Below are positions 50,682 through 63,633 of a stretch of 64,000 nt of DNA, one piece after another (position 1 is the first letter of the stretch; every line of letters starts with the position of its first letter). The position numbers and the translations under genes were made by a program. The stretch covers positions 1-64,000 of the forward strand of contig CANQMP010000004.1 of the NCBI GenBank assembly GCA_947624975.1. Reading direction: 5' to 3'. The stretch comes from Candidatus Gastranaerophilales bacterium. GTDB taxonomy: Bacteria; Cyanobacteriota; Vampirovibrionia; Gastranaerophilales; Gastranaerophilaceae. A model generated the notes under the pieces. The model saw nothing but the letters and a program-made list of their open reading frames with translations. It searched no databases and had not been told where the DNA came from.

Positions 50682-52007
50682 ATGAAAATATTTGCTTTAA
50701 AAAAAAGTAATAATTCCTTTTATACACAATATCAAATAACTATTTTTGATATCGTTATTGCTTATAAACAATTTTCAAAAAATTATAACACCTATTTTAA
50801 ACAGTTAAAAAAATATAAGGAAAAGAAAAAAGACAATATTACCAGAAGATTATTCTTAACATCCGGAAATTTAAGTTTAATTAATGCTCTTGCGATTATC
50901 AATCAAAAGGGTTTAAATAAAAATAGCGAAAACAGCATTTTAATTTGGTCGCATATATCAAATCAGGAATTTGAAGAAGTTTCTACCCAAATCAGCCATT
51001 TAACAAAAATAAAAAAACTTTTTAAATTTTGTAATTGTACACTTGATGATTTATTTAAGTATTTCATAAATAATCATTTAGCTGAATATGATGAGATATA
51101 TCTTATAAATTGCAGGTATATGTTTTTAATAAAAGATTTTCTTTTTCCGAACATAAAGTACTATATTTTTGATGAAGGAGTTTGTGTACTCTTTAAACAC
51201 AAAGGCATTGACTATTCTGATGTCAAAAAATGTTTTTTTATAAAATATTTAGATAAAATAGATTTTTTAGGAGCTGATAATGAATTAAATGAAAAAATTG
51301 AATTTTTAGATAAAAGAGAATTCTTAAAAGTTTCTCAAAGTGCAGCAGAACTTTATCCTATTGGTTTGAATTTAAATCCTGAGGACAAAAACATAATTTT
51401 ATGCGGAACTGGCGAAGGATGTGGCTTTTGGAGTTTTGATGAAATATTTAATTATCAAAATAAAATAATAGATGATTTAAATTTACATGGCTATAATGTA
51501 TTATTTAAACCTCATCCCAGAGATAAATTTAAGTATCAGGAAAAAGAAAATTTCAGAATTATAAATACAAAGCTACCTCTTGAGTGCTACGATTTAAAAG
51601 ATAAATGTCTTGCGGTTGTTTCATTATTTTCTTCTGTTTCTGCTCAAATGTATAGTTTTCATAATATTCCCGGATTTTGTGCACATGGTTTTATAAATGA
51701 TGTTAAAGATATAGGGATAAAAATTGTAAAATATTATTCACCATCTTATGAAATGCTTCTTTCAATTGATGTTAAAACAAAAACATTTAATGAAGTTCAG
51801 AATGAAATTTTGTCTTTATATACAAACTTTTTAAATAAAAAAACATTAATGTCCCAAAATAGTGCCTTAGCCAATAACTACGCGCAATTGCCCCCCCCCC
51901 CCCCATGCATCTCTGAATCTGAAATACGGGATATTATACATATCAATGAACAAAAAAATAAAAAAACATTAGTTTTAGGAAGACTAAATCTTTTTTTGGC
52001 GGACTAA
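50682..52007 (+). CDS. Sialyltransferase-like glycosyltransferase with poly-C tract
   Basis: 441 residues. Three motifs of the bacterial sialyl/polysialyltransferase group (GT38/GT52) appear in order: DEG at 164-166, HP at 278-279 (KPHPRDK) and SS at 317-318. It likely transfers sialic acid or a related sugar onto a cell-surface glycan. A run of 14 C (51891-51904) encodes PPPPP at 404-408, and 33 residues follow. One C fewer or more would replace this tail: C15 stops after four codons, C13 gives about 23 different residues. The stop codon lies inside a palindromic repeat (52001-52012). The family call rests on short motifs only. Confidence 0.62.
   Translation: MKIFALKKSNNSFYTQYQITIFDIVIAYKQFSKNYNTYFKQLKKYKEKKKDNITRRLFLTSGNLSLINALAIINQKGLNKNSENSILIWSHISNQEFEEVSTQISHLTKIKKLFKFCNCTLDDLFKYFINNHLAEYDEIYLINCRYMFLIKDFLFPNIKYYIFDEGVCVLFKHKGIDYSDVKKCFFIKYLDKIDFLGADNELNEKIEFLDKREFLKVSQSAAELYPIGLNLNPEDKNIILCGTGEGCGFWSFDEIFNYQNKIIDDLNLHGYNVLFKPHPRDKFKYQEKENFRIINTKLPLECYDLKDKCLAVVSLFSSVSAQMYSFHNIPGFCAHGFINDVKDIGIKIVKYYSPSYEMLLSIDVKTKTFNEVQNEILSLYTNFLNKKTLMSQNSALANNYAQLPPPPPCISESEIRDIIHINEQKNKKTLVLGRLNLFLAD
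51891..51904 (+). repeat. Homopolymer C14 in coding sequence
   Basis: 14 consecutive C, near the 3' end of the sialyltransferase-like gene. Slippage would swap the C-terminal tail. Confidence 0.95.
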
Positions 52008-52012
52008 AGTCC
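52001..52012. repeat. Glycan-locus palindrome, copy 1
   Basis: GGACT-AA-AGTCC, followed by ACCCTACA. It contains the stop codon of the upstream gene and lies between two convergent genes. Confidence 0.75.
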
Positions 52013-52022
52013 ACCCTACAAA

Positions 52023-52766
52023 CTAATTTCTTAAATAATCGTGCCCGCCGTATTTCTTACTTGCTTTATCCCTTAATAAAATCCTGATATCATCTTTATA
52101 ACAGGGTATGTCCCAGCCTTCGGGGTAGCCGTATTTACAAGGTAAAATCCTATATTTTCGATTTATAATATATTTGTTTATTTGACTTTCGTCATGCCAA
52201 AGCGCTATTACATTATTCTCTAAATCATCATGGATATTTTTGCTCAATTCTTCGCATAACTTTAAATATTCTTCACTCAAACCCCCGTTAAATCCTCCCA
52301 TCACATAGCTAATACCCCCCCCCATGGGAATATATGCTTTTGACTTAGGATTTCTGTCATAAGTAAATTCTAAATTTGTTTTATCATAAAACCCCGGGTG
52401 TTGAGTTACCATAATTCCGCCATGGGCGTATTTATCAGGCAAAATATCTTCTTTAATTTCTTTTTCAAAAAGAATATTTGCATTACAAAAGAATAAATAA
52501 TCATACATTTTAAGCTCATCCTTTTGAGATAAAAACATATCAAAACGCATTAGGGTATCATAAGGCCAACCGAGTTTTTTTTGATAAATTTTTTTAACTT
52601 CTTTTTTGTTGTCGTAGTCAATGTGGTCACTATCTGTAAAAACAAAATAAGATTTTTTATGCTTTTTTAGAAAATATTTTTCACAAGATTCATAAAAATC
52701 TTTCCAAAAAACAGTATATTTTCCTGTACAAATGTAAAGAATTGCTATATTTAATTTTTTTGCCAT
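52023..52766 (-). CDS. GT6-family glycosyltransferase (ABO blood-group transferase type) with poly-G tract
   Basis: 247 residues that match GT6 throughout: LYICTGKYTVFW near 10-21, FVFTDSD near 41, the sugar-nucleotide metal motif as NAN at 95-97 (the NxN form typical of bacterial members; animal enzymes have DxD), GGFNGG near 157-162 and WHDESQINKY near 192. Bacterial GT6 enzymes add alpha-1,3-GalNAc or Gal, some to fucosylated acceptors. G9 (52315-52323) encodes Gly 149-151 in the middle of the catalytic domain, so slippage would switch the gene off. I chose the ATG at 52766 behind GGAG; 52781 is another possible start. It overlaps the GT2-GT11 gene upstream. Confidence 0.86.
   Translation of the reverse strand: MAKKLNIAILYICTGKYTVFWKDFYESCEKYFLKKHKKSYFVFTDSDHIDYDNKKEVKKIYQKKLGWPYDTLMRFDMFLSQKDELKMYDYLFFCNANILFEKEIKEDILPDKYAHGGIMVTQHPGFYDKTNLEFTYDRNPKSKAYIPMGGGISYVMGGFNGGLSEEYLKLCEELSKNIHDDLENNVIALWHDESQINKYIINRKYRILPCKYGYPEGWDIPCYKDDIRILLRDKASKKYGGHDYLRN
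52315..52323 (-). repeat. Homopolymer G9 in the GT6 gene
   Basis: Nine consecutive C on the plus strand (G on the coding strand), mid-gene, in the catalytic domain. Confidence 0.95.
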
Positions 52767-54553
52767 TTTATTTTTCTCCATTCCAAAGGTATTATTGTGC
52801 TACTGTTTTCAACAAAAGGATCAGGAGCTAAAACAACCCCTGAAGTATCTTTTCTAAGCCATGCTCCCCACCAGCTAAAAGTTGAATTTGCAATAATTGC
52901 GTGTTTGCATTGGCTCATTAAATACATATCTTTCCAATCTTCTTTGTTATTATAGTTATGATTACCAATAAATTCTACAGGCGCATCTATTTTAAATGTA
53001 TTGAAAAAATCTTCGCAATCAGTTCCAAAAACAAAGAATTCAGGGTTTTTTATATTTTTAGATATAAAATCAAGAGCCTTTTTGTAATAATCCCTATTTA
53101 ATTCCCAGCCCAAATTTAAATAATCCCCCCTTCGTATATGAATAAATACAGGGTTTTCACAAGATTTTATCTTATTTAAAATATTCAAATTATATTCATC
53201 TTGAATATCAGGAAAAGTAAAATCTTTTCTGAGAATATCTTCAATTCCTTCTAAATATTTAGAGTTTTGAAAATAACCTTCATAATATATTTTTTTTGAG
53301 AGGAATAAATTTTCATCATATTCAAAAGGATTTTTTTCTTGAATAATCTTAGTTTCATATTTTGCCACTTTGAACATTTTTCTCAAGAAACCAAAAGGCA
53401 GAGTTTTTTTCATTTTTTTAGCCTTTTGAATATATTCCAAAGAAGCAAATTTTATATCAGGATTAAAAATTCCGAGTTCATATTTTCTAGCGTACGTTCC
53501 GTTAGGCAAAACTCCGTTATGATTAATCTCATTAATTTCATCAAACCAATTTTTATCATAAAGAACTTTACAGCGGCATACTTTCCTTAATTTCACTCCG
53601 AAAGCATATTGAAACATTTGATTTCCAAGACCGCCATTTAAATTAACTATCTTTTTAATATAGCAATGGAGGGGGGGCAGTTTATCACTATTTTCAACTA
53701 TTTCCACCTTTCTTTTAAATTTAATCCCAAATATACATAAAACATTATGCACTTTATTATTTGCTGAATATTGTTTTTTTAAAGAAAAGATTTTTTCGAT
53801 AAATTTATATTTTAGTTTAGTAGTATTATTCGAATTAATACTTTCTCTTATTTTATTTTTTATTTCCTCGTTGTCGGTTAAAAAATCAAGCATATTATCC
53901 TGAACAATCATACTTGCAGTATAAATTTCAGGTTTTAGAGATAAATTGTCCCCATGCAGGCGATATTTTAAAAGAATAGTTGGAAGATTATAAAAATTTA
54001 AGTATCTTATGGCTCTTGACCAGAGTTCATAATCCTCACAGCTTAATCCTTCTTTATATCTCAAATTATATTTCTTGAAATCCTCTTTTCTGAGCATAAC
54101 TGCAGGATGTGCCATAAAGCAACCTTTTAAGAAATCAAAATATTTGGGATTTTGTGGATAACGCCAAATTGCATTTTCTGTCCCGAACACCTCAACTGCA
54201 CCTCCGACTATTGAATACTCAGGATTATTCTCCAAAAACTCAACTTGGAGTCTAAACCTATCGGGAAGAGAAATATCATCGGAATCCATCCTTGCAATAT
54301 ATTCACCCTGAGCAATATCAAAACCGTAATTAAGTGTTTTTACTATACCTTGATGTTTTAACCTGATATAAGTAACCCTACCCTGAACATCCTTATATTT
54401 GTTTATAATTGTTTCAATATTATTTGTAGAACCGTCATCCAATATTAGAAATTCAAAATCTTTATAAGTTTGATTTAAAATACTTTCAATAGCTTCTTTA
54501 AGATATTGTTCATCAGGATTGTAACAAGGCATTATAACTGAAATTCTAGGCAT
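52751..54553 (-). CDS. Fusion of GT2 glycosyltransferase and GT11 alpha-1,2-fucosyltransferase
   Basis: 600 residues from the ATG at 54553. Residues 1-210 form a GT2 (GT-A) domain: RISVIMPCYNPDEQYL, LDDGST and RMDSDDISLP. Residues about 303-600 form a GT11 domain with GGLGNQMFQYAFG, VFIHIRRGDYL and ANSTFSWWGAWL, so it likely adds Fuc alpha-1,2 to galactose. A C7 run (53671-53677) encodes PP at the junction. A stand-alone fucosyltransferase of this type usually starts M-K-K-I; here that position is ATT (I-K-K-I-V). C8 or C6 would end the product shortly after the GT2 part (KLPPPPLLY or KLPPSIAILKR). An upstream TTG at 54577 is a less likely start. Confidence 0.88.
   Translation of the reverse strand: MPRISVIMPCYNPDEQYLKEAIESILNQTYKDFEFLILDDGSTNNIETIINKYKDVQGRVTYIRLKHQGIVKTLNYGFDIAQGEYIARMDSDDISLPDRFRLQVEFLENNPEYSIVGGAVEVFGTENAIWRYPQNPKYFDFLKGCFMAHPAVMLRKEDFKKYNLRYKEGLSCEDYELWSRAIRYLNFYNLPTILLKYRLHGDNLSLKPEIYTASMIVQDNMLDFLTDNEEIKNKIRESINSNNTTKLKYKFIEKIFSLKKQYSANNKVHNVLCIFGIKFKRKVEIVENSDKLPPLHCYIKKIVNLNGGLGNQMFQYAFGVKLRKVCRCKVLYDKNWFDEINEINHNGVLPNGTYARKYELGIFNPDIKFASLEYIQKAKKMKKTLPFGFLRKMFKVAKYETKIIQEKNPFEYDENLFLSKKIYYEGYFQNSKYLEGIEDILRKDFTFPDIQDEYNLNILNKIKSCENPVFIHIRRGDYLNLGWELNRDYYKKALDFISKNIKNPEFFVFGTDCEDFFNTFKIDAPVEFIGNHNYNNKEDWKDMYLMSQCKHAIIANSTFSWWGAWLRKDTSGVVLAPDPFVENSSTIIPLEWRKIKWQKN
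53671..53677 (-). repeat. Homopolymer C7 at the GT2-GT11 domain junction
   Basis: Seven consecutive G on the plus strand (C on the coding strand), exactly between the two enzyme domains. Confidence 0.9.
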
Positions 54554-54580
54554 ACGATAACCAAAACCTTTCTTCAAAAA

Positions 54581-55618
54581 CTAATCTGACGCAGTGCCCC
54601 CCATCGATGGTTTAAGGGGAGAAACGGGTTCTTTTTTAACGGGAATACCAAATACTTTGTATATTCTTTCCTCATTTTTTATTTTTTCACGATATAAAGT
54701 TATATTAAAAACAGATATTTTTTTATCTGATTTTGAAAATTTCACAAAAATTAGATAAGGTATTTTAAAAGCAAAGAAATTAGAATAAAAATCACTGTAT
54801 TTAATTTTTTTGATAATATCTTGCGCCATTTTTTCGTCATATCTTTTTTCAATATATGAAATGGCATCGTTAAGCACGCTTTTATATTGTCTTAACCTTT
54901 CTTTTTTGTTTTCTTTTTTAGTCATATTTGAAATCAAAGAATTTTTTCTTTTTCTATACATTACAACCGGATCTTCAATGCAAGAAATTTGAGGAAAATT
55001 AGAATATATTTTAATAAAAAAGCCTTCATCTTCATGAATTAAATTTTCATCAACAAATGTAATGTTATTAGATATAAGAAAATCTTTTTTAATCAATCTG
55101 CCCCATGCTGTATGATAATTCATATCATAGAATGAATCAAAATTCTCCGGAGTTATTTTTAATTTTGCTGCCATATAGGGCTGTTGAAAAAATTCATTTG
55201 ACTGTTTAACGGAAAGCTTAAATTCCTCATCTACCTCCTGCGTGAATGACCTTACTTTTCCTTGAGCAATATCGGTGTTATCCTGCAAGATTTTTCTATA
55301 CAATTTTTCTAATATATTTTCATCAAATAAATAGTCATCAGAATCTAAAAAGAAAATATACTCGCCTGAAGAAGATTTAAGTCCCGTATTTCTTGTTACG
55401 GCTAAACCTTTATTTGATTTATGGCAAATTAACTTTATACGGTTGTCTTTTTGCATAAAACTTTTTACGATGCTTATAGAATTGTCTTTTGAACAATCAT
55501 CAACGCAAATTATTTCAAGATTTTTATAGCTTTGCGAAACAACACTTTCAAGGCATTGCGCGAGATATTCTTCTACATTATATATTGGAATAATAACGGA
55601 AATTTTTGAAGTATTCAT
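54581..55618 (-). CDS. GT2-family glycosyltransferase with short poly-G tract at the 3' end
   Basis: 345 residues. GT-A nucleotide-sugar domain of GT2: ISVIIPIYNVEEYL near 6-19, VDDCSKDN near 39-46, and FFLDSDDYLF near 94-103. The C-terminal part is Lys-rich with a hydrophobic patch. A G6 run (54597-54602) follows Ser-Met near the end. The present reading ends GGTASD; G7 would read GGHCVRLVFEERFWLSYA and run into the next gene's start, while G8 would end GGALRQISF. A GGAGG ribosome site precedes the ATG. Sugar specificity is unknown. Confidence 0.87.
   Translation of the reverse strand: MNTSKISVIIPIYNVEEYLAQCLESVVSQSYKNLEIICVDDCSKDNSISIVKSFMQKDNRIKLICHKSNKGLAVTRNTGLKSSSGEYIFFLDSDDYLFDENILEKLYRKILQDNTDIAQGKVRSFTQEVDEEFKLSVKQSNEFFQQPYMAAKLKITPENFDSFYDMNYHTAWGRLIKKDFLISNNITFVDENLIHEDEGFFIKIYSNFPQISCIEDPVVMYRKRKNSLISNMTKKENKKERLRQYKSVLNDAISYIEKRYDEKMAQDIIKKIKYSDFYSNFFAFKIPYLIFVKFSKSDKKISVFNITLYREKIKNEERIYKVFGIPVKKEPVSPLKPSMGGTASD
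54597..54602 (-). repeat. Homopolymer G6 near the stop of a GT2 gene
   Basis: Six consecutive C on the plus strand, G on the coding strand. It is the shortest tract of the set and so the least likely to slip often. Confidence 0.75.
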
Positions 55619-55761
55619 TTAGCCTCCAAAGGTGTTTGTAATTCTGCTAAACAAATATCTTTTTTATAAAATTTTATATCCGATAAATTAAGAATAATTT
55701 CTTTCACATCGGCTGTGCATTTATTAATAACAAAGAATTTAAAGCATTTTTTAGGCGACAT
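55615..55761 (-). other. Alternative-frame C-terminal extension of the GT2 gene
   Basis: An open frame of 48 codons that begins ATG-TCG-CCT right after the G10 tract and ends TGA, overlapping the ATG of the next gene (ATGA). It is read as an extension of the GT2 protein when the tract has 9 or 12 G, or could be a small separate gene. Translation starts M-S-P-K-K-C-F-K-F-F-V-I and ends L-Q-T-P-L-E-A-K. I do not recognise it. Confidence 0.55.
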
Positions 55762-56638
55762 TTTGCCCCCCCCCCATCAGGGCAAAGAATACAAAGGAGA
55801 GTAAAAAGCCGACTATTAAAACAAATTCGACAATCACCGCGATAAGAAGAATATTAAAGAGTTTTTTATATTTCTTGCTTCTTCTTTTAATTTTTTTGAA
55901 ATCAACAAAGCTTGAATCCAAAAAGGCATCTGTAAACTTTTTATTATTTAAATAAGTTTTAATGTGATGAGAAAGAATTAAAAATTTTATTAAATCAATA
56001 TTTTTATCATGAATATGAGTTCTGCAAGCTTCATCACCCAATTTGCGATAATGATATAGAACTTCATTTATTTTATAAAACTTGAATCCTTTTTCAAAAA
56101 ATGTAATCCATAATTCCCAGTCCTCACAACCGATATCATTAAGCCATTTTTTATATCCACCTATTTCTTCAAAATGTTTTTTTCTAAACATTGAGGAAGA
56201 TATTAAACAATTAAAATATAAGATTTTTTCTTCATCAAAATTACAATATATGTCATAATTTTCTGCTTGAAAATATTTAACATCACAATAGACAACAGAA
56301 TATTCCGGATTGTCATCAAGTGCGCGGACAAATTTTTCAATATAAGTTTCATCAAGGATATCATCGGCATCAAAAGGAAGAATGTACTCTCCTTTAGCCA
56401 TGTTAATTAATTTATTTCTTGCTGCACAAACTCCGATATTCTCTTTTTCATTAATATAAATAATTTCGGGATGGTCTTTTATTATTTCTTGAATAATATC
56501 CGCACTTTTATCTTCAGATGCATCGTTTAATACTAAAATCTCAATATCTTTATATGTTTGTTTAAAAACAGACTCAAGTGCTTCTTTAACATACTTCTCT
56601 TTATTATAGACAGGTATGACAACTGATACTTTAACCAT
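55751..56638 (-). CDS. GT2-family glycosyltransferase with poly-G tract before the stop
   Basis: 295 residues. GT2 domain with VSVVIPVYNKEKYV, LNDASED and LPFDADDILDE, followed by a C-terminal membrane helix (LLIAVIVEFVLIVGFLLSFVFFALM). A G10 run (55766-55775) comes directly after the helix, and the present frame stops five codons later. With G9 or G12 the frame stays open for 47 more residues and ends TGA at 55615-55617, overlapping the next gene's ATG as ATGA. The 132 bases between the two genes therefore look like coding sequence in the alternative phase. Full-length versus short form probably depends on the tract. Confidence 0.87.
   Translation of the reverse strand: MVKVSVVIPVYNKEKYVKEALESVFKQTYKDIEILVLNDASEDKSADIIQEIIKDHPEIIYINEKENIGVCAARNKLINMAKGEYILPFDADDILDETYIEKFVRALDDNPEYSVVYCDVKYFQAENYDIYCNFDEEKILYFNCLISSSMFRKKHFEEIGGYKKWLNDIGCEDWELWITFFEKGFKFYKINEVLYHYRKLGDEACRTHIHDKNIDLIKFLILSHHIKTYLNNKKFTDAFLDSSFVDFKKIKRRSKKYKKLFNILLIAVIVEFVLIVGFLLSFVFFALMGGGQNVA
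55766..55775 (-). repeat. Homopolymer G10 before the stop of a GT2 gene
   Basis: Ten consecutive C on the plus strand, checked against the reading MGGGQNVA-stop. Confidence 0.95.
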
Positions 56639-56772
56639 AGAATTATTTTACCACAAAAAAATTTATAAATGTTTTTATATATTTTAAATTGTAAATTTTT
56701 GCGGGCAGCGGGGGAGATTTTGGTCCGGATTTTTGTTTTCTCGGCGGATTTGGCGGGCTGTTTTATCCGTAG

Positions 56773-56790
56773 GGTAGACTTTAGTCTACC
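56773..56790. repeat. Glycan-locus palindrome, copy 2
   Basis: GGTAGACT-TT-AGTCTACC, in the orientation with TAGG on its left. It lies in the 218-base gap between the GT2 gene and fcl, which also holds two near copies of GGCGGATTTGGCGG (56743 and 56804). Confidence 0.8.
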
Positions 56791-56822
56791 GTTTAAACAT
56801 TCTTGGCGGATTTGGCGGACTC

Positions 56823-56840
56823 GGTGGACTGAAGTCCACC
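56823..56840. repeat. Glycan-locus palindrome, copy 3
   Basis: GGTGGACT-GA-AGTCCACC, followed by CTACAG. Relative to copy 2 both arms changed A to G and T to C, keeping the pairing. Confidence 0.8.
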
Positions 56841-56856
56841 CTACAGCTTAGGAATG

Positions 56857-57798
56857 TTAATGTGTTAAATTGTTGCAAAAATCTTCATAAACCTTTTTTA
56901 TACCCTCTTTAAGAGAAGTTTTTGCCTTAAAACCTAAAGAATTTATTTTTGAAATATCCATAACTTTTCTCATAGTGCCATCCGGCTTTGTTTTATCAAA
57001 AACTATCTTACCTTTGTAACCGACTACTTCTTTTATTAAATCAGCGAGTTCTGATATTGAAATTTCTTCCCCTGTACCGATGTTAATTATTTCCCCTATA
57101 TCTTTTGCTGTTTTATTTTCCATAAGATATACAACTGCACGCGCTAAATCACCTGCGAACATAAATTCCCTTAAAGGTTTTCCGCTTCCCCAAACCGTAA
57201 CGGATTCCGCGTTTGAAACTTTTGCATCATGAAATCTTTTCAAAAGCATTGGAAGAACGTGGGCGTTTTGTTCATGATAATTATCATTAAAACCATACAA
57301 ATTGCAAGGCATCACAGATATAAAATCAGTGCCATATTCTCTATTATAAGCATCACACAGCTTTAATCCGCCAATTTTAGCCAATGCGTACATTTCATTT
57401 GTTTTTTCAAGTTTTGAAGAAAGTAAATATTCTTCCTTTAAAGGTTGCGGAGCGTTTTTGGGATATATACAACTGGAACCCAAAAATAACAGCTTTTTAA
57501 CATTATATTTATAGGAATTTTCAATAACATTAAGCTGAATTTTCATATTTTCTGTAAAAAATTCAACAGGATATGTATTATTAGCATATATTCCCCCTAC
57601 TTTAGCCGCAGCAAGAATAACATAATCGGGTTTATTTATTGAAAAAAATTCACTAACGGCAAAAGAGTCGGATAAATCAAGTTCTTTATGACCTTTAAGA
57701 ATTAAATTGTTATAACCTTTTTCTTTTAATTCTTTTGTTATCGCAGAACCGACAAGCCCCTTATATCCCGCAACAAATATTTTATCATGTTTTTTCAT
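56857..57798 (-). CDS. fcl: GDP-L-fucose synthase
   Basis: Epimerase-reductase that makes GDP-L-fucose from GDP-4-keto-6-deoxymannose. 313 residues, with the NAD(P)-binding loop GYKGLVGSAI near 12-21, the SDR catalytic Tyr-x-x-x-Lys in MYALAKIGG near 136-144 and the family segments LGSSCIYPKNAPQPL and NLYGFNDNYHEQNAHVLP. Its ATG overlaps the stop of gmd by one base (TAATG), so the two are translated together. They supply the donor for the fucosyltransferases in this locus. Confidence 0.95.
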   Translation of the reverse strand: MKKHDKIFVAGYKGLVGSAITKELKEKGYNNLILKGHKELDLSDSFAVSEFFSINKPDYVILAAAKVGGIYANNTYPVEFFTENMKIQLNVIENSYKYNVKKLLFLGSSCIYPKNAPQPLKEEYLLSSKLEKTNEMYALAKIGGLKLCDAYNREYGTDFISVMPCNLYGFNDNYHEQNAHVLPMLLKRFHDAKVSNAESVTVWGSGKPLREFMFAGDLARAVVYLMENKTAKDIGEIINIGTGEEISISELADLIKEVVGYKGKIVFDKTKPDGTMRKVMDISKINSLGFKAKTSLKEGIKKVYEDFCNNLTH

Positions 57799-58892
57799 TA
57801 TATCTCCAAAGAATTATATACTTTGTAACCGTTTTCTTTTAACATTCTTTCTTTTTCAGCCAATTCAAAGTCATTTTCAACCATTTCATCAATTAACATA
57901 TCAAGATTATACTTTGGTTTCCAATTAAGTTCGTTTCTTGCTTTAGAACTGTCCCCTAAAAGTAAATCAACTTCTGCGGGTCTAAAATAGCGTGGGTCAA
58001 CCTCAATAACAATTTTGCCCGTTTTTTTATCTATTCCTTTTTCATCAAGCCCTGAGCCTATAAATTCCAAATCCATATCCAGACGAGCAAAAACTTTTTT
58101 ACAAAAATCTCTTATTGATGTTGTAATACCCGTTGCTAAAACGTAATTATCCGGTTTTTCGGCTTGCAATATTAAATACATTCCTTCAACATAATCTTTA
58201 GCATGCCCCCAATCTCGTTTTGCATTAAGGTTGCCTAAATATAACTTATCCTGTAGTCCCATTTTTATTTTTGAAGCTGCCATTGTTATTTTTCGTGTAA
58301 CAAAAGTTTCACCTCGTCTTGGTGATTCGTGGTTGAATAATATTCCGTTTGAAGCAAATATATTAAAACTTTCACGGTAATTAACACAAATCCAATAAGC
58401 GTATAATTTTGCAGCAGCATAAGGAGAACGCGGATAAAAAGGTGTTGTTTCTTTTTGTATCGGTTCTTGTATAAGTCCATACAACTCTGATGTTGAAGCC
58501 TGATAAAACTTTGTTTTATTTTCAAGCTTGTTAAGCCTTATTGCCTCAAGCAGCCTTAATGTGCCTAAAGCATCAATATCTGCAGTATATTCAGCACAAT
58601 CCCAAGAAACTTTTACGTGTGATTGAGCTGCCAAATTGTAGATTTCATCGGGTTCAATATCGTGTATTAATTTTATCAGATTTGATGAATCGGATAAATC
58701 TCCGTAATGAAGAATAAAATTTGAGCTGTCGTGTATATCTTGATAAATATGGTCAATTCTTTGAGTATTAAAAGAACTCGCACGTCTTTTTATACCATGC
58801 ACTTCGTAACCTTTTGAAATTAATAATTCGGAAAGATAGCTTCCGTCTTGTCCTGTTACTCCCGTTATTAAAGCTTTTTTCATATCATTCAC
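57798..58892 (-). CDS. gmd: GDP-mannose 4,6-dehydratase
   Basis: First committed step to GDP-L-fucose. 364 residues with the SDR loop [14 protein letters not shown] near 10-23, the catalytic Tyr and Lys in [12 protein letters not shown] near 161-172, and the family segments [13 protein letters not shown] and [17 protein letters not shown]. The ATG at 58892 has AGG six bases upstream; the ATG at 58883 is another possible start. Adjacent to fcl, and divergent from the GT10-type fucosyltransferase gene. Confidence 0.95.
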
Positions 58893-58982
58893 AACCTATT
58901 TTGTATTTTATCTTCATTTAAATAATAACACAAACATTTAAAATGCACATTGTGTTAAAAACTGTTTTTGGGTAGACTGTAG

Positions 58983-59000
58983 GATAGACTTTAGTCTACC
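58983..59000. repeat. Glycan-locus palindrome, copy 4
   Basis: GATAGACT-TT-AGTCTACC with one mismatch, and GGTAGACTGTAG just before it, in the 161-base divergent gap between gmd and the GT10 gene. Confidence 0.7.
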
Positions 59001-59018
59001 TCTTTAATTTTTCAAACC

Positions 59019-59047
59019 TTGTTTTCAAATCGAGATTATGTTAATAT
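59019..59047 (+). promoter_or_regulatory. Promoter of the GT10-type gene, leaderless type
   Basis: TTGTTT (59019-59024), 17-base spacer, extended -10 TGT-TAATAT (59042-59047), then six bases to the ATG at 59054 and no ribosome site. Confidence 0.65.
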
Positions 59048-59053
59048 TTTTTC

Positions 59054-60010
59054 ATGAAAATCCGAGATAAAATAACAATTAAAATAGCTTATTGCGATTT
59101 TTGGGCAAACTGTAAATTTGACGAATTACATTTTACAAAAATTTTAAATGAAAAATATAATTTAGTGTACAGCGATGAACCTGATTACCTTTTTTGTTCA
59201 TGTTTTGGAAGAGAACATTTTAAATATAAAGACTGTATTAAAATATTTTATACTGGAGAAAATTGTGTATGTGATTTTAATCTTTACGATTACGGATTGT
59301 CATCTTGTTATATGACATTTACAGACAGGCATTTAAGATTTCCTCAATGGATACCTTATGATTTAAATCTAATAAGTTTAATGGAATATGGCAGAGAAAA
59401 AAATCCTGACTTAGATAAAAAGAAATTTTGTAATTTCATATATTCAAATGCGCATTGTGCGGAACAATTCCGAGAAGTGTTTTTTGAGAAATTATCAAAA
59501 TATAAAAAAGTTGATTCAGGCGGGAGTGTTCTAAATAATTTAGGATATAAAGTTCAAAATAAATTAGATTTTATTAAAGACTATAAATTTACCATTGCTA
59601 TTGAGAATTCTTTTGTTCAAGGTTACATAACAGAAAAACTAAGCGACCCTTTAATTGCAGGTTCTATGCCTTTATATTACGGCGACCCAATGGTTGGCGA
59701 AGAATTTAATACAAATTCTTTTGTGAATTTAAGAGATTTTAAGTCAATTAACGAAGCTATTGAATATATTGTTGAGCTTGATAAAAACGATAAATTATAT
59801 TTAGAAAAATTACAAAGTCCTTGTTTTATTCATGCTAATGTTGAGAATTATTACAGAAATAAAACTATTGATTTTTTCAGTAATATTTTTGACCGCGAAA
59901 AGGAAGAAGCGAAAAGAGTAACCCGATTTGGCTGGACTAAATATTATGTAGATGCCATCGCCCCCCCCCCCCCATCGCCTTGGTTTAAAAAAATATTAAA
60001 AAAATATTAA
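59054..60010 (+). CDS. GT10-type alpha-1,3/4-fucosyltransferase with poly-C tract at the 3' end
   Basis: 318 residues with the GT10 core pattern FTIAIENSFVQGYITEKLSD near 178-197, LIAGSMPLYYGDP after it, and IFYTGENC near 74. Likely transfers fucose from GDP-fucose to GlcNAc or Glc, as in Lewis-type glycans. C13 (59961-59973) encodes PPPP, followed by the basic tail SPWFKKILKKY. C14 would end IALV and C12 would end HRLGLKKY. In related fucosyltransferases a C-terminal basic amphipathic tail attaches the enzyme to the membrane, so tract length may control this. Confidence 0.87.
   Translation: MKIRDKITIKIAYCDFWANCKFDELHFTKILNEKYNLVYSDEPDYLFCSCFGREHFKYKDCIKIFYTGENCVCDFNLYDYGLSSCYMTFTDRHLRFPQWIPYDLNLISLMEYGREKNPDLDKKKFCNFIYSNAHCAEQFREVFFEKLSKYKKVDSGGSVLNNLGYKVQNKLDFIKDYKFTIAIENSFVQGYITEKLSDPLIAGSMPLYYGDPMVGEEFNTNSFVNLRDFKSINEAIEYIVELDKNDKLYLEKLQSPCFIHANVENYYRNKTIDFFSNIFDREKEEAKRVTRFGWTKYYVDAIAPPPPSPWFKKILKKY
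59961..59973 (+). repeat. Homopolymer C13 near the 3' end of the GT10-type gene
   Basis: Thirteen consecutive C, checked against the reading A-P-P-P-P-S-P-W. Confidence 0.95.
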
Positions 60011-60016
60011 AAAAAT

Positions 60017-60034
60017 GGTAGACTAAAGTCTACC
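60017..60034. repeat. Glycan-locus palindrome, copy 5
   Basis: GGTAGACT-AA-AGTCTACC, followed by CTACAG, seven bases after the GT10 gene stop and between convergent genes. Confidence 0.85.
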
Positions 60035-60070
60035 CTACAGTCTATCTTAAAGCTAAACTCTAACAAAAAT

Positions 60071-61027
60071 TTAATTCGGTCTATCCATATCCCCATCCCC
60101 TTTAAAAAGTATTATTCCTTTCTTTGAGCTTGAATAACATATATCTATATTCCTTTGTTCAAAAGGAGAAAAATATTCCGGTATTATATTTTCGCTGTTT
60201 TGAATTTCAATAAAACCTGCATCTTCAAACAGTTTATTTGAAATGCCTGAATTATAGCAATCAATATATTCAATATTATTTTTTTTCATATATTCATCAA
60301 AATATGCTGTTATAACGGGAATTTTATTATAATTCCCTAAAATATCAACTATTCTTAAACATTTACTCGAATTACATTCTTGAAGCCTTGTTATAACAAT
60401 TAAATCATCATCAAATAAATTAACGTTATATTTAAAAACAGGGTGGTTAAAATATCTTCTTTCTATATAATCAATACTTTTTGGTATTGCGTTTGTATCA
60501 TATTTAAAACCCTTTGGTATTTCATCAACCGATTTTAATTCTTTAACAGTTACAGAGCTCCTTTTAATTTCAGGAATTAATTTATCAATAACTTTTGCAA
60601 TTTTATACTCTGCAAGTTCGTTTAATCTGAAATAATGGTTCATTTTCCCTAATTCATAATCAAAGAAAAGATAAATTTCTCCGGAAGTTTCAATATTAAC
60701 TCCGACTGTTGCAATAAGCTGTGTTTTCAATTCATTCATTAAAAATTCAAATAATTCCATGCCAATAAATGAGTCTTGAGCATTTAATGCTTTCCATAAC
60801 GCCAGTGAAATAATGCTATGGGACTTATCATAAGGGATATAACCAATTACTCCGTTTATTTTGTCTTCCTTATCTTTTGATATCGCAAAATTAACTCTGT
60901 CTTTGTCTGTTATATAAAGATATTCGAAAAATTTGCGGTTTGCTGCAAGGATATGTCCATGCTTCCAATAGTTTTCTATAAAATCCATAATATCAGCTAT
61001 ATCATTTTTTGTTGCAAATTTAATCAT
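60071..61027 (-). CDS. GNAT-like acyltransferase of unknown substrate
   Basis: 318 residues. The N-terminal half (residues 1-110) looks like a GNAT fold: IKFATKNDIADIMDFI, then INGVIGYIPYD as the central strand pair. The C-terminal half has a second GNAT-like end (YIDCYNSGISNKLFEDAGFIE). Such two-part proteins occur in surface polysaccharide loci, where they may acylate an amino sugar. It overlaps the phosphopantetheinyl transferase gene by eight bases, so the products may act together, possibly with an acyl carrier protein as donor. The substrate is not evident. Confidence 0.65.
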   Translation of the reverse strand: MIKFATKNDIADIMDFIENYWKHGHILAANRKFFEYLYITDKDRVNFAISKDKEDKINGVIGYIPYDKSHSIISLALWKALNAQDSFIGMELFEFLMNELKTQLIATVGVNIETSGEIYLFFDYELGKMNHYFRLNELAEYKIAKVIDKLIPEIKRSSVTVKELKSVDEIPKGFKYDTNAIPKSIDYIERRYFNHPVFKYNVNLFDDDLIVITRLQECNSSKCLRIVDILGNYNKIPVITAYFDEYMKKNNIEYIDCYNSGISNKLFEDAGFIEIQNSENIIPEYFSPFEQRNIDICYSSSKKGIILFKGDGDMDRPN

Positions 61028-61565
61028 AATGTTTTAATATCTCACTTTCAGTGTATCTGGTTATATTCATTTCAGTTTTTATATTCGCATAAATTGAGCA
61101 AATATAATCTTCTTCAATCCATTGTATAACATTCATATCAAAATTAAAAGCTGTTGTATCAATTTTAAAAAAATCTTCACTTAATCCTAAAGATGTATAT
61201 TTTGAATAGGCTTCTTTTAAAGTCCAGATTTTATAGAATTGTTCTTGTGTCATATTTTTGTAATATTCAAGTTCGTTTTTATGAAATACCATGTCAAAAA
61301 TATCTTTTGGAACTTCTTTTATTTCCTCAATATCAACTCCAAGGTTGTTATTTTTATCAACGCAGCATAATATCATATTATTTGAATGAGATATATTAAA
61401 ATTTATATCTCCATCTATATAGGGTTTATCATTTACCCCTTTTTGGATTTTGATAGTTTTCCAATTTTTAACTCCCTCATTTTTTAACATTACTCTTAGT
61501 AATAATTTAGAAAAAAAAGAAGTTCTATAAGGTTTTGAGATTAATTTTAAAAGTCCTGTTTGCAT
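61020..61565 (-). CDS. 4'-phosphopantetheinyl transferase (Sfp type)
   Basis: 181 residues with the three Sfp-type motifs in order: INFNISHSNN near 54-63, LGVDIEEI near 75-82 (Mg2+-binding Asp and Glu) and FYKIWTLKEAYSKYTSLGL near 111-129. It attaches the phosphopantetheine arm to carrier proteins. In a glycan locus this is unusual, and no carrier-protein gene is seen nearby. The overlap with the GNAT-like gene suggests a carrier-dependent acylation step, but it could also be the general PPTase of the cell. Confidence 0.85.
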   Translation of the reverse strand: MQTGLLKLISKPYRTSFFSKLLLRVMLKNEGVKNWKTIKIQKGVNDKPYIDGDINFNISHSNNMILCCVDKNNNLGVDIEEIKEVPKDIFDMVFHKNELEYYKNMTQEQFYKIWTLKEAYSKYTSLGLSEDFFKIDTTAFNFDMNVIQWIEEDYICSIYANIKTEMNITRYTESEILKHYD

Positions 61566-61572
61566 ATTTTAA

Positions 61573-62712
61573 TTATACATCATAGTTTTTATTAAAGTCT
61601 TTTTGGGGTGGAGTGAAGTCCACCCTACTCCTACCGTTATATATGTTCAAATAATACCTTATTATTCTATTATCATTTATAAAAGAAATATAATACATTA
61701 ATCTTAAATGAGAAAAACTCCTATAATTAGTTTTTTTCTCTAATTCAAAAAAGTTAGTATTAAAAAACTCATCTATTTTAATACTTTTACTCTTATATTT
61801 GTCTTTCATTTTTTCATAAACAAGTTTTTTCATATCTTTTAAGTGTATCCAGAAAAAACCTATAGGAAAGATTTTTTGCATTAATTTATTATCATTTTGA
61901 AATCTTTCAATTATTCTGTTATTTTCGTTATCATAAAAAGGAATATAATAAGTATCAGATGACACGGGAAAACAAACAGTATCAAAAGTCCCGTTAAATG
62001 GCGACAATAGATCAGGTGTTTCAAAACTACCCAAAGGTATTTTACCTTCAAATAAATTTATTCCGGAAAAAGAAGTTATTATTTTATCATTTTGGATTTT
62101 TTTCTTTATGTAAGAAATCAAATTCTTAATAAAAAATTTTGGGATTAAAAAATGACAACTAAAAGAATTTAGATAATTTGAATGTTTTAATATTTTTTTA
62201 TATAACTTTTGATAATATTTGAACGCAAGCTTCTCTTTTAATAAAATTTTAACCTTATCTTCTCTTTTATATAAATCCAATATTTCTTTAAATTTATCAC
62301 TGAAATAAATCTGATCATCATCAATTTTTATTGCATATTTATATTTTGCTTTAGATAGCGCAAAATTATAATAGTTACTTAATAGATGAATTGAATTTTT
62401 AGGAAGATTTAAAGCATAATCATATTCTTCTTCAGATAAATTATGAGAATATACTTTTGGCTCATAAAAATAAACTCTAATTTTATCAGGATACTGTTTT
62501 TGTTTTTCAATAATTATTTTTTCGGTATCATCAAAACTTTCCTGATAAACAATAATTAATTCATCAAGAGCATTTATACAGGAATCAATACAATCCGAAA
62601 TAAAATCTGCACCGTTTTTTGCTCTTAATAACCCGCTTATACCAATAGGACGTTCTTTTGTAAAGTCTGAAATATTCACGGCAAAAGAGCTGCCCCCCCC
62701 CCCCCCCTGCAT
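61573..62712 (-). CDS. GT2-like glycosyltransferase switched by a G15 tract at the start
   Basis: 379 residues. The N-terminus is IGISGLLRAKNGADFISDCIDSC near 20-42, then ELIIVYQESFDDT, and a DxD-type KIDDDQIYF near 123-131, which fit a GT2-like enzyme of uncertain sugar. G15 (62693-62707) lies directly after ATG-CA, encoding Q-GGGGG at residues 2-7; any change not a multiple of three takes the whole protein out of frame. No other in-frame start precedes the catalytic part. The 3' end overlaps a palindromic repeat at 61606-61625, so the last dozen residues (near NGRSRVDFTPP) are encoded by repeat sequence. Confidence 0.8.
   Translation of the reverse strand: MQGGGGGSSFAVNISDFTKERPIGISGLLRAKNGADFISDCIDSCINALDELIIVYQESFDDTEKIIIEKQKQYPDKIRVYFYEPKVYSHNLSEEEYDYALNLPKNSIHLLSNYYNFALSKAKYKYAIKIDDDQIYFSDKFKEILDLYKREDKVKILLKEKLAFKYYQKLYKKILKHSNYLNSFSCHFLIPKFFIKNLISYIKKKIQNDKIITSFSGINLFEGKIPLGSFETPDLLSPFNGTFDTVCFPVSSDTYYIPFYDNENNRIIERFQNDNKLMQKIFPIGFFWIHLKDMKKLVYEKMKDKYKSKSIKIDEFFNTNFFELEKKTNYRSFSHLRLMYYISFINDNRIIRYYLNIYNGRSRVDFTPPQKDFNKNYDV
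61606..61625. repeat. Glycan-locus palindrome, copy 6
   Basis: GGGTGGAGT-GA-AGTCCACCC with one mismatch, inside the 3' end of the GT gene 61573-62712 and followed by TACTCC. Confidence 0.75.
62693..62707 (-). repeat. Homopolymer G15 next to a start codon
   Basis: Fifteen consecutive C on the plus strand (G on the coding strand), the longest tract in the window, checked against the reading M-Q-GGGGG-SS. Confidence 0.95.
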
Positions 62713-62838
62713 TTGATTTGTTCATATTTATTATAGTATTTTTATTTGAATTTTGCATCATTTTCTTTTTTTATTATATTTATCCTTTTTTATTATACAA
62801 TAAAATTTTTATTAAGTTTATGGTAAAATTTTCTTATA

Positions 62839-63633
62839 ATGAAATTGGATATGAAAAAAATTTTTAGCATAGAAAAAGTTAAAAGCAGGGAATATAAGCA
62901 CATTTATATAACCTTATTTTTTATAAAATTTTCTTTTAAATATAAAAATAGAGATAAATATATTGAAAAGTATTTAATAGAAGATGAATCTAACAAAATC
63001 TATATTAAAGAAAACGGAATTTTAAGAGAAACTCAAGAAAAAATCCCGGGACTTGACATTGACTTAAAGGGGGCTAATAACACAATTATTATTGAATATC
63101 CTACGCATTTTATAGATTCTCGCATCGATTGTAAGGGTAATAATGGCAAAATTATTATAGAACAAACCAAAAATAAATTAATTAATTTGAAAATATATAT
63201 GTCCTCTAACGACAATGAAAAACTTCTGGAAAACAGATATGTTCATATAAAACGTAATGCATCCTCGGGAGGAGGTGGAGGCTTGAGTATTTTCTCATGG
63301 TCAGAAAACTCTAAGGTAATTATAGGCGAAGATTGCATGTTTTCATGTGGTATAAAGGTATTCTGCGGGGATGGGCACTTATTTAAAGATAAAAAAACAG
63401 GTAAATATATAAATAATTATGACGGATGTTTTGTTGAAATAGGCAACCACTGCTGGATTGGAATGAATGTCGTTGTGTGTAAAAATACAAGAATCCCCGA
63501 TGGTTGTATAATAGGGGTAAATTCTGTCGTAACAAAAAGCATTAATGAAGAAAATGTTGTACTTGCGGGCAATCCTGCAAAAATTGTAAGAAAAGATATT
63601 GAATGGGAAAGAAAAGTTAAATATTTAAATTGA
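62839..63633 (+). CDS. Hexapeptide-repeat acetyltransferase
   Basis: 264 residues. The C-terminal 110 residues are a left-handed beta-helix acyltransferase: FVEIGNHCWIGMNVVVCKNTRIPDG, then IGVNSVVTKS and VLAGNPAKIVRKD, the usual ending of sugar O- or N-acetyltransferases. Residues 1-125 are less conserved. A run of five Gly at about 144-148 is encoded with mixed codons (GGA GGA GGT GGA GGC), not a pure G tract. A TAAAAT box ends nine bases before the ATG. Likely decorates a sugar of the surface glycan. Overlaps the lipoate-ligase-like gene by 17 bases. Confidence 0.8.
   Translation: MKLDMKKIFSIEKVKSREYKHIYITLFFIKFSFKYKNRDKYIEKYLIEDESNKIYIKENGILRETQEKIPGLDIDLKGANNTIIIEYPTHFIDSRIDCKGNNGKIIIEQTKNKLINLKIYMSSNDNEKLLENRYVHIKRNASSGGGGGLSIFSWSENSKVIIGEDCMFSCGIKVFCGDGHLFKDKKTGKYINNYDGCFVEIGNHCWIGMNVVVCKNTRIPDGCIIGVNSVVTKSINEENVVLAGNPAKIVRKDIEWERKVKYLN

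Follow-up and report, generated by a model that had tools for sequence, protein, structure and literature searches.

Does the run of guanines at the 5' end of a predicted glycosyltransferase gene act as a length-dependent switch, and if so, from which start codon is the enzyme read? The window (the whole 64,000-nucleotide stretch analysed) lies on contig C4 of a 1.91 Mb genome in 59 contigs that has a cyanobacterial-type split rpoC, and whose nearest named relatives, Candidatus Gastranaerophilales assemblies, bear sample names (Lapin) that suggest a rabbit gut origin. A C15 run on the forward strand, corresponding to G15 on the reverse, coding strand (62693-62707), forms the longest G/C run of the window, as an earlier note on this DNA had reported for the tract with its flanks (62690-62712). 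Across the window, G9 words gave 21 overlapping matches against 0.01 expected from shuffled sequences, far beyond chance. The 379-residue open reading frame also begins as that note described, with the run at codons 2-7 (ATG CAG GGG GGG GGG GGG GGC, or M-Q-G5). Its product matched the Glycos_transf_2 profile (PF00535) at 32.6 bits (cut-off 23.3), which was its sole family match and assigns it to family 2 rather than to the GT10 or GT11 fucosyltransferases; its predicted structure has a mean pLDDT of 36. The run is likely, in our view, to be a contingency (phase-variation) tract of the poly-G type, lying in the 5' leader of a gene for a surface-glycan glycosyltransferase. The earlier note was probably right to propose a contingency switch, in that a long, length-variable tract precedes an intact, selected GT2-type enzyme; the start codon that it chose, and its reading of the state as assembled, are probably incorrect.

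Frame enumeration placed three ATG codons upstream of the tract (62761, 62758 and 62725) in one frame and a fourth, ATG 62712, in another. ATG 62758, which precedes the tract by 51 nt, reads into the enzyme at tract lengths (n) of 8, 11, 14 and 17 and is out of frame at the assembled G15; from ATG 62712 the enzyme can be read at 9, 12, 15 and 18, while at 10, 13 and 16 no ATG start reaches it. Changes in tract length hence put the coding sequence behind the tract in or out of frame with the start, as in contingency genes, and a change of one base moves the whole enzyme to another frame, in agreement with the loss of the enzyme frame that had been predicted. Features of the locus and of the surrounding gene cluster are collected in the table below. 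Because a promoter scan returned sites no more numerous than in shuffled sequences, and did not single out the TATAAT upstream of the gene, this candidate is put forward from its conservation by eye.

Features of the tract-bearing locus and its neighbourhood (positions in the window)
Feature	Positions	Strand	Basis
Probable conserved start ATG, MQNSNKNTIINMNKSNAGGG...; preceded in frame by ATG 62761	62756..62758	-	Frame enumeration; starts of relatives
Start ATG of the earlier note, 5 nt before the tract; in frame at G15	62710..62712	-	No counterpart in relatives
Leader from conserved start to tract, 17 codons, poorly conserved	62708..62758	-	Orthologue comparison
Candidate -10 box, TATAAT	62792..62797	-	Same motif ahead of the start in L011, L013 and L014
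G15 tract, proposed slippage site	62693..62707	-	Run enumeration and shuffles
GTG in the enzyme frame beyond the tract, a possible start independent of it; not conserved	62677..62679	-	Orthologue comparison
GT2-type glycosyltransferase ORF	61573..62712	-	PF00535 at residues 31-81; invariant IDDDQIYF motif
Hexapeptide acyltransferase, divergent; neighbour kept in L011 and L012	62839..63633	+	Profile match, synteny
Sfp/ACPS-type phosphopantetheinyl transferase; neighbour kept in L011, L012 and L014	61020..61565	-	Profile match, synteny
318-aa protein without Pfam match; neighbour kept in L011, L012 and L014	60071..61027	-	Profile search, synteny
C13, 37 nt before the end of GT10 alpha-1,3-fucosyltransferase gene 59054-60010; alters C-terminal tail only	59961..59973	+	Frame test
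G10, 15 nt before the end of GT2 gene 55751-56638	55766..55775	-	Frame test
G9, mid-gene in GT6 (ABO-type) glycosyltransferase gene 52023-52781; one-base change shortens 252 aa to 157-159 aa	52315..52323	-	Frame test
C14, near the end of polysialyltransferase-like gene 50682-52007	51891..51904	+	Frame test

Four orthologues of the locus (L011-L014), all from other genera of the family, were found again as named contigs in the genome_contigs collection, which yielded only these four other species; viral_contigs contained no strain-level copies of the locus. Core identity to the window enzyme was 91% for L011, 78% for L012, 72% for L013 and 63% for L014, with the conserved core beginning at ERPIG, past the tract. 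Compared with 15 in the window, the tract measured 9 in L011 and 11 in both L013 and L014, and was missing from L012; it is therefore not invariant. Orthologue leaders start 77-87 nt before the core, at ATG in L011 and L013, GTG in L014 and TTG in L012 (the last at 87 nt), similar to the 85 nt of ATG 62758 in the window, and the distances from start to tract are 47 (L011), 45 (L013) and 59 nt (L014). The first residues are likewise similar, reading MQNSN in the window (from 62758), MQSQN in L013 and (GTG)QNSKD in L014, while those of L011 (MSKLNESTIINLN versus MQNSNKNTIINMN) resemble the window's 62758 start. Given this shared upstream start, and that none of the four orthologues has an equivalent of ATG 62712 (L011 and L013 carry other second-frame ATGs), the conserved start is most likely ATG 62758. 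The earlier placement of the tract directly behind its start codon thus probably reflects a misassigned start.

Read from the shared start, the alleles differ in state: the window (15), L011 (9; on at 8) and L014 (11; on at 12) are OFF, L013 (11) is ON, and L012 is open without a tract. The cores are uninterrupted over 349-366 codons in all five sequences, with dN/dS values of 0.15-0.25 indicating purifying selection, and stops in the L002/L011 match fall past residue 349, at its shorter C-terminus. Between species, then, tract lengths differ ahead of a downstream frame that is intact and selected, as would be expected of a contingency gene. Since the cores are intact and selected in all five, the out-of-frame copies are not decaying genes; out-of-frame starts over selected cores are expected of a switch and not of gene decay.

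We propose that slipped-strand mispairing during replication would alter the number of G residues within a strain, and that ribosomes initiating at ATG 62758 (or 62761) would enter the enzyme in a frame set by this number. In place of the simplest on/off layout described earlier, the locus may involve three frames, with two sets of starts that could be used. At n = 2 mod 3 (14, 17) the gene would be fully ON, yielding the complete protein behind a short leader that is not conserved; at n = 1 mod 3 (13, 16) it would be OFF, the enzyme being read from no ATG start; and at n = 0 mod 3 (15, as assembled) a weak or alternative ON state might arise, in which the poorly placed ATG 62712 alone reads the enzyme. 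As G15 is open solely from this last codon, the assembly probably shows an OFF or weakly expressed copy, not one that is plainly on. The assembled length is itself a consensus from a metagenome and may be uncertain by one or more bases.

On the reading of the earlier note, translation starts at ATG 62712 and nowhere else, with the gene ON at G15 and OFF at 14 or 16. This would account for the 379-residue frame at the assembled length, but appears unlikely given that all four orthologues lack this codon and have a common upstream start in its place, and that three ATGs upstream of it enter the tract in another frame. Also, no Shine-Dalgarno-like sequence was found before ATG 62712; Shine-Dalgarno usage among the genes of the window is mixed, making its strength a weak arbiter between starts. 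Translation might instead begin past the tract, leaving it without control over expression. GTG 62679 in the window, which could permit translation independent of the tract, a GTG elsewhere in L011 and a TTG in L014 are each in frame, and the conserved core starts later still. We nevertheless find such a start quite unlikely, as L012 and L013 have no such codon, the positions of the others are not homologous, and no Shine-Dalgarno-like sequence lies at the usual spacing. The earlier note had named two findings that would speak against a switch, an invariant tract and a downstream in-frame start conserved in all relatives, and neither was observed among the four orthologues. Taken together, the variable tract, the intact and selected cores and the unshared downstream starts support a frame switch driven by slippage.

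Both short-read errors and contig breaks occur commonly at G runs, and 16 of the roughly 77 runs of at least nine G or C in the genome are found no more than 300 nt from a contig end. A tract length misjudged in assembly or sequencing, in a gene that is always in frame, seems very improbable all the same, since relatives that were assembled separately possess tracts of other lengths in the same place, and the contig ends are mostly accounted for by a multi-copy gene family. It is extremely improbable that run length instead acts through RNA or DNA structure, with a G-quadruplex damping translation gradually: by simple arithmetic G15 would be the shortest single run capable of a three-layer G-quadruplex with one-base loops, but 71 of the genome's 77 tracts fall below this length, and orthologue tracts of 9 and 11 are too short.

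Surface sugars subject to poly-G phase variation are known above all from a few pathogens: Helicobacter, Neisseria, Haemophilus and Campylobacter. For Melainabacteria, Vampirovibrio and Gastranaerophilales, no report of phase variation was found in the literature searched, in which one flagellin survey mentions both terms in passing. As far as this search extends, the tract is therefore ordinary in kind, a poly-G contingency gene as in Helicobacter and Neisseria, and apparently unreported in Gastranaerophilales. Helicobacter pylori futA and futB are phase-variable fucosyltransferase genes with poly-C tracts (PMC2583950). Shared with these genes are a G/C homopolymer near the 5' end of a (here putative) surface-glycan glycosyltransferase gene, a similar range of tract lengths (12-14 in futA/futB), and out-of-frame copies that are intact downstream; the GT10 gene adjoining in the window is moreover a relative of the H. 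pylori fucosyltransferase. Unlike futA and futB, the enzyme considered here is of GT2 type and not a fucosyltransferase, comes from another phylum, and is known from sequence alone. Haemophilus influenzae lic2A combines a tetranucleotide tract with initiation codons in two frames (Dixon et al. 2007, as cited in PMC3116884). Going by that citation, the present locus resembles lic2A in having starts in two frames before the tract, such that more than one length class would be translatable, but it differs in its mononucleotide tract and in a second start that is not conserved between relatives and may be due to chance. Indeed, about 8% of shuffled leaders contain starts in two frames, and the three-state reading may thus itself be fortuitous. 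Poly-G tracts also lie inside the lgt glycosyltransferase genes of Neisseria, which act on lipooligosaccharide (Yang and Gotschlich 1996, as cited in PMC5084427); compared with what is cited there, lineage and enzyme are different here, and the glycan is presumed. Of the variable repeats of strong candidate genes in Neisseria meningitidis, 19 out of 55 are surrounded by several start codons (PMC5084427).

Genes from 50682 to 63633 of the window, together with the adjoining stretch L018 (contig C4, 64001-83000), form one cluster with about ten poly-G tracts. The neighbouring gene at 59054-60010 matches GT10, its product being nearest to H. pylori FucT (E 4e-39), and the gene at 52751-54577 matches GT11; the cluster includes a GT2-GT11 fusion. 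The GT6 enzyme is nearest to Bacteroides-type GT6 structures and then to the human ABO transferase. A GDP-mannose dehydratase scored above its cut-off, and a GDP-fucose-synthase-like protein below. Beyond the window, the same contig encodes NeuB and NeuC (both above cut-offs), a CMP-sugar synthetase, a NeuD-like acetyltransferase and two further polysialyltransferase-like genes, one of which is split at its tract. In this split gene, at L018:6169-7414, G12 divides 230- and 211-residue frames, with two paralogues open, making it an apparent OFF allele. From this gene content we infer a glycan that may carry host-like fucosylated, sialylated and ABO-type sugars, and regard the cluster as a candidate host-glycan-mimicry locus. 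The tract of the GT2-type gene, described earlier as the strongest switch layout of the window, is not the sole strong one: at the mid-gene G9 of the GT6 gene, a one-base change truncates the enzyme. In G154, homologues of the GT6 and GT10 genes possess tracts at matching places, of 11 (L075, GT6) and 11 compared with 9 and 13 here.

Several tracts of the cluster (59961-59973, 51891-51904, 55766-55775 and L018:14067-14081) lie within approximately 100 nt of the 3' end of their genes, unlike the usual 5' switch, and the length of the tract in the GT10 gene decides whether its C-terminus reads PWFKKILKKY. An interrupted G-rich stretch in the divergently oriented acyltransferase gene (63268-63283; GGGAGGAGGTGGAGG, encoding SSGGGGG) is possibly a fossil tract locked in frame.

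Most of the approximately 77 tracts of the genome measure 10-14, with one of 26. About 35 gene starts possess a common leader (MKK..ISTLNPSGGG-like) that places the tract 34-35 nt downstream of the ATG; the leader sequence, ATG aag aag att ... aac cca tc, is followed by G10-16 and then by a prepilin-like frame (L017-L073; for example L045:2219, L059:65 and L058:2201). These tracts occur in all three frames; of 26 copies with a TLAE-type prepilin motif close behind, the assembly shows 5 in frame and 21 out of frame. Flanks that closely resemble one another around lengths of 10-16 provide the best evidence here for changes in tract length, and the group has the appearance of a large family of pilin-like proteins, each switchable on its own. 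Tracts close to contig ends belong mostly to this family (in G000, for example C5:1-16, C8:1-13 and C10:61720-61733), the assembly breaking at tracts of its repeated members. The single G26 (L046:2204-2229, contig C18) lies inside a 300-residue ORF and is far longer than the other tracts of the genome.

We tentatively suggest that this non-photosynthetic gut relative of cyanobacteria could operate a combinatorial system, in which about ten independent, slippage-driven poly-G switches within one 30-kb cluster vary a fucose-, sialic-acid- and ABO-type glycan (host-glycan mimicry), alongside some 35 switchable pilin-like genes, with the G15 tract as one three-state element. If such switching is true, a single gut species would carry many glycan types simultaneously, and gene callers would systematically choose wrong starts or broken genes at the tracts, as here. 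This would also place poly-G logic of the kind familiar from pathogens in a lineage of uncultured gut commensals adjacent to Cyanobacteria.

Loss of mismatch repair was considered as a cause of the many tracts, and rejected because MutS is present, in the source genome and in 32 of the 33 genomes of the genus overall, and because tract-poor genomes mostly possess MutS as well, and the one genome lacking a match is almost tract-free. The presence of MutS neither supports nor excludes slippage. Genomes of the genus contain between 0 and 176 tracts each. Counts in photosynthetic members of the phylum run from 0 to about 90, in larger genomes, and tracts as such are therefore not unique to this lineage.
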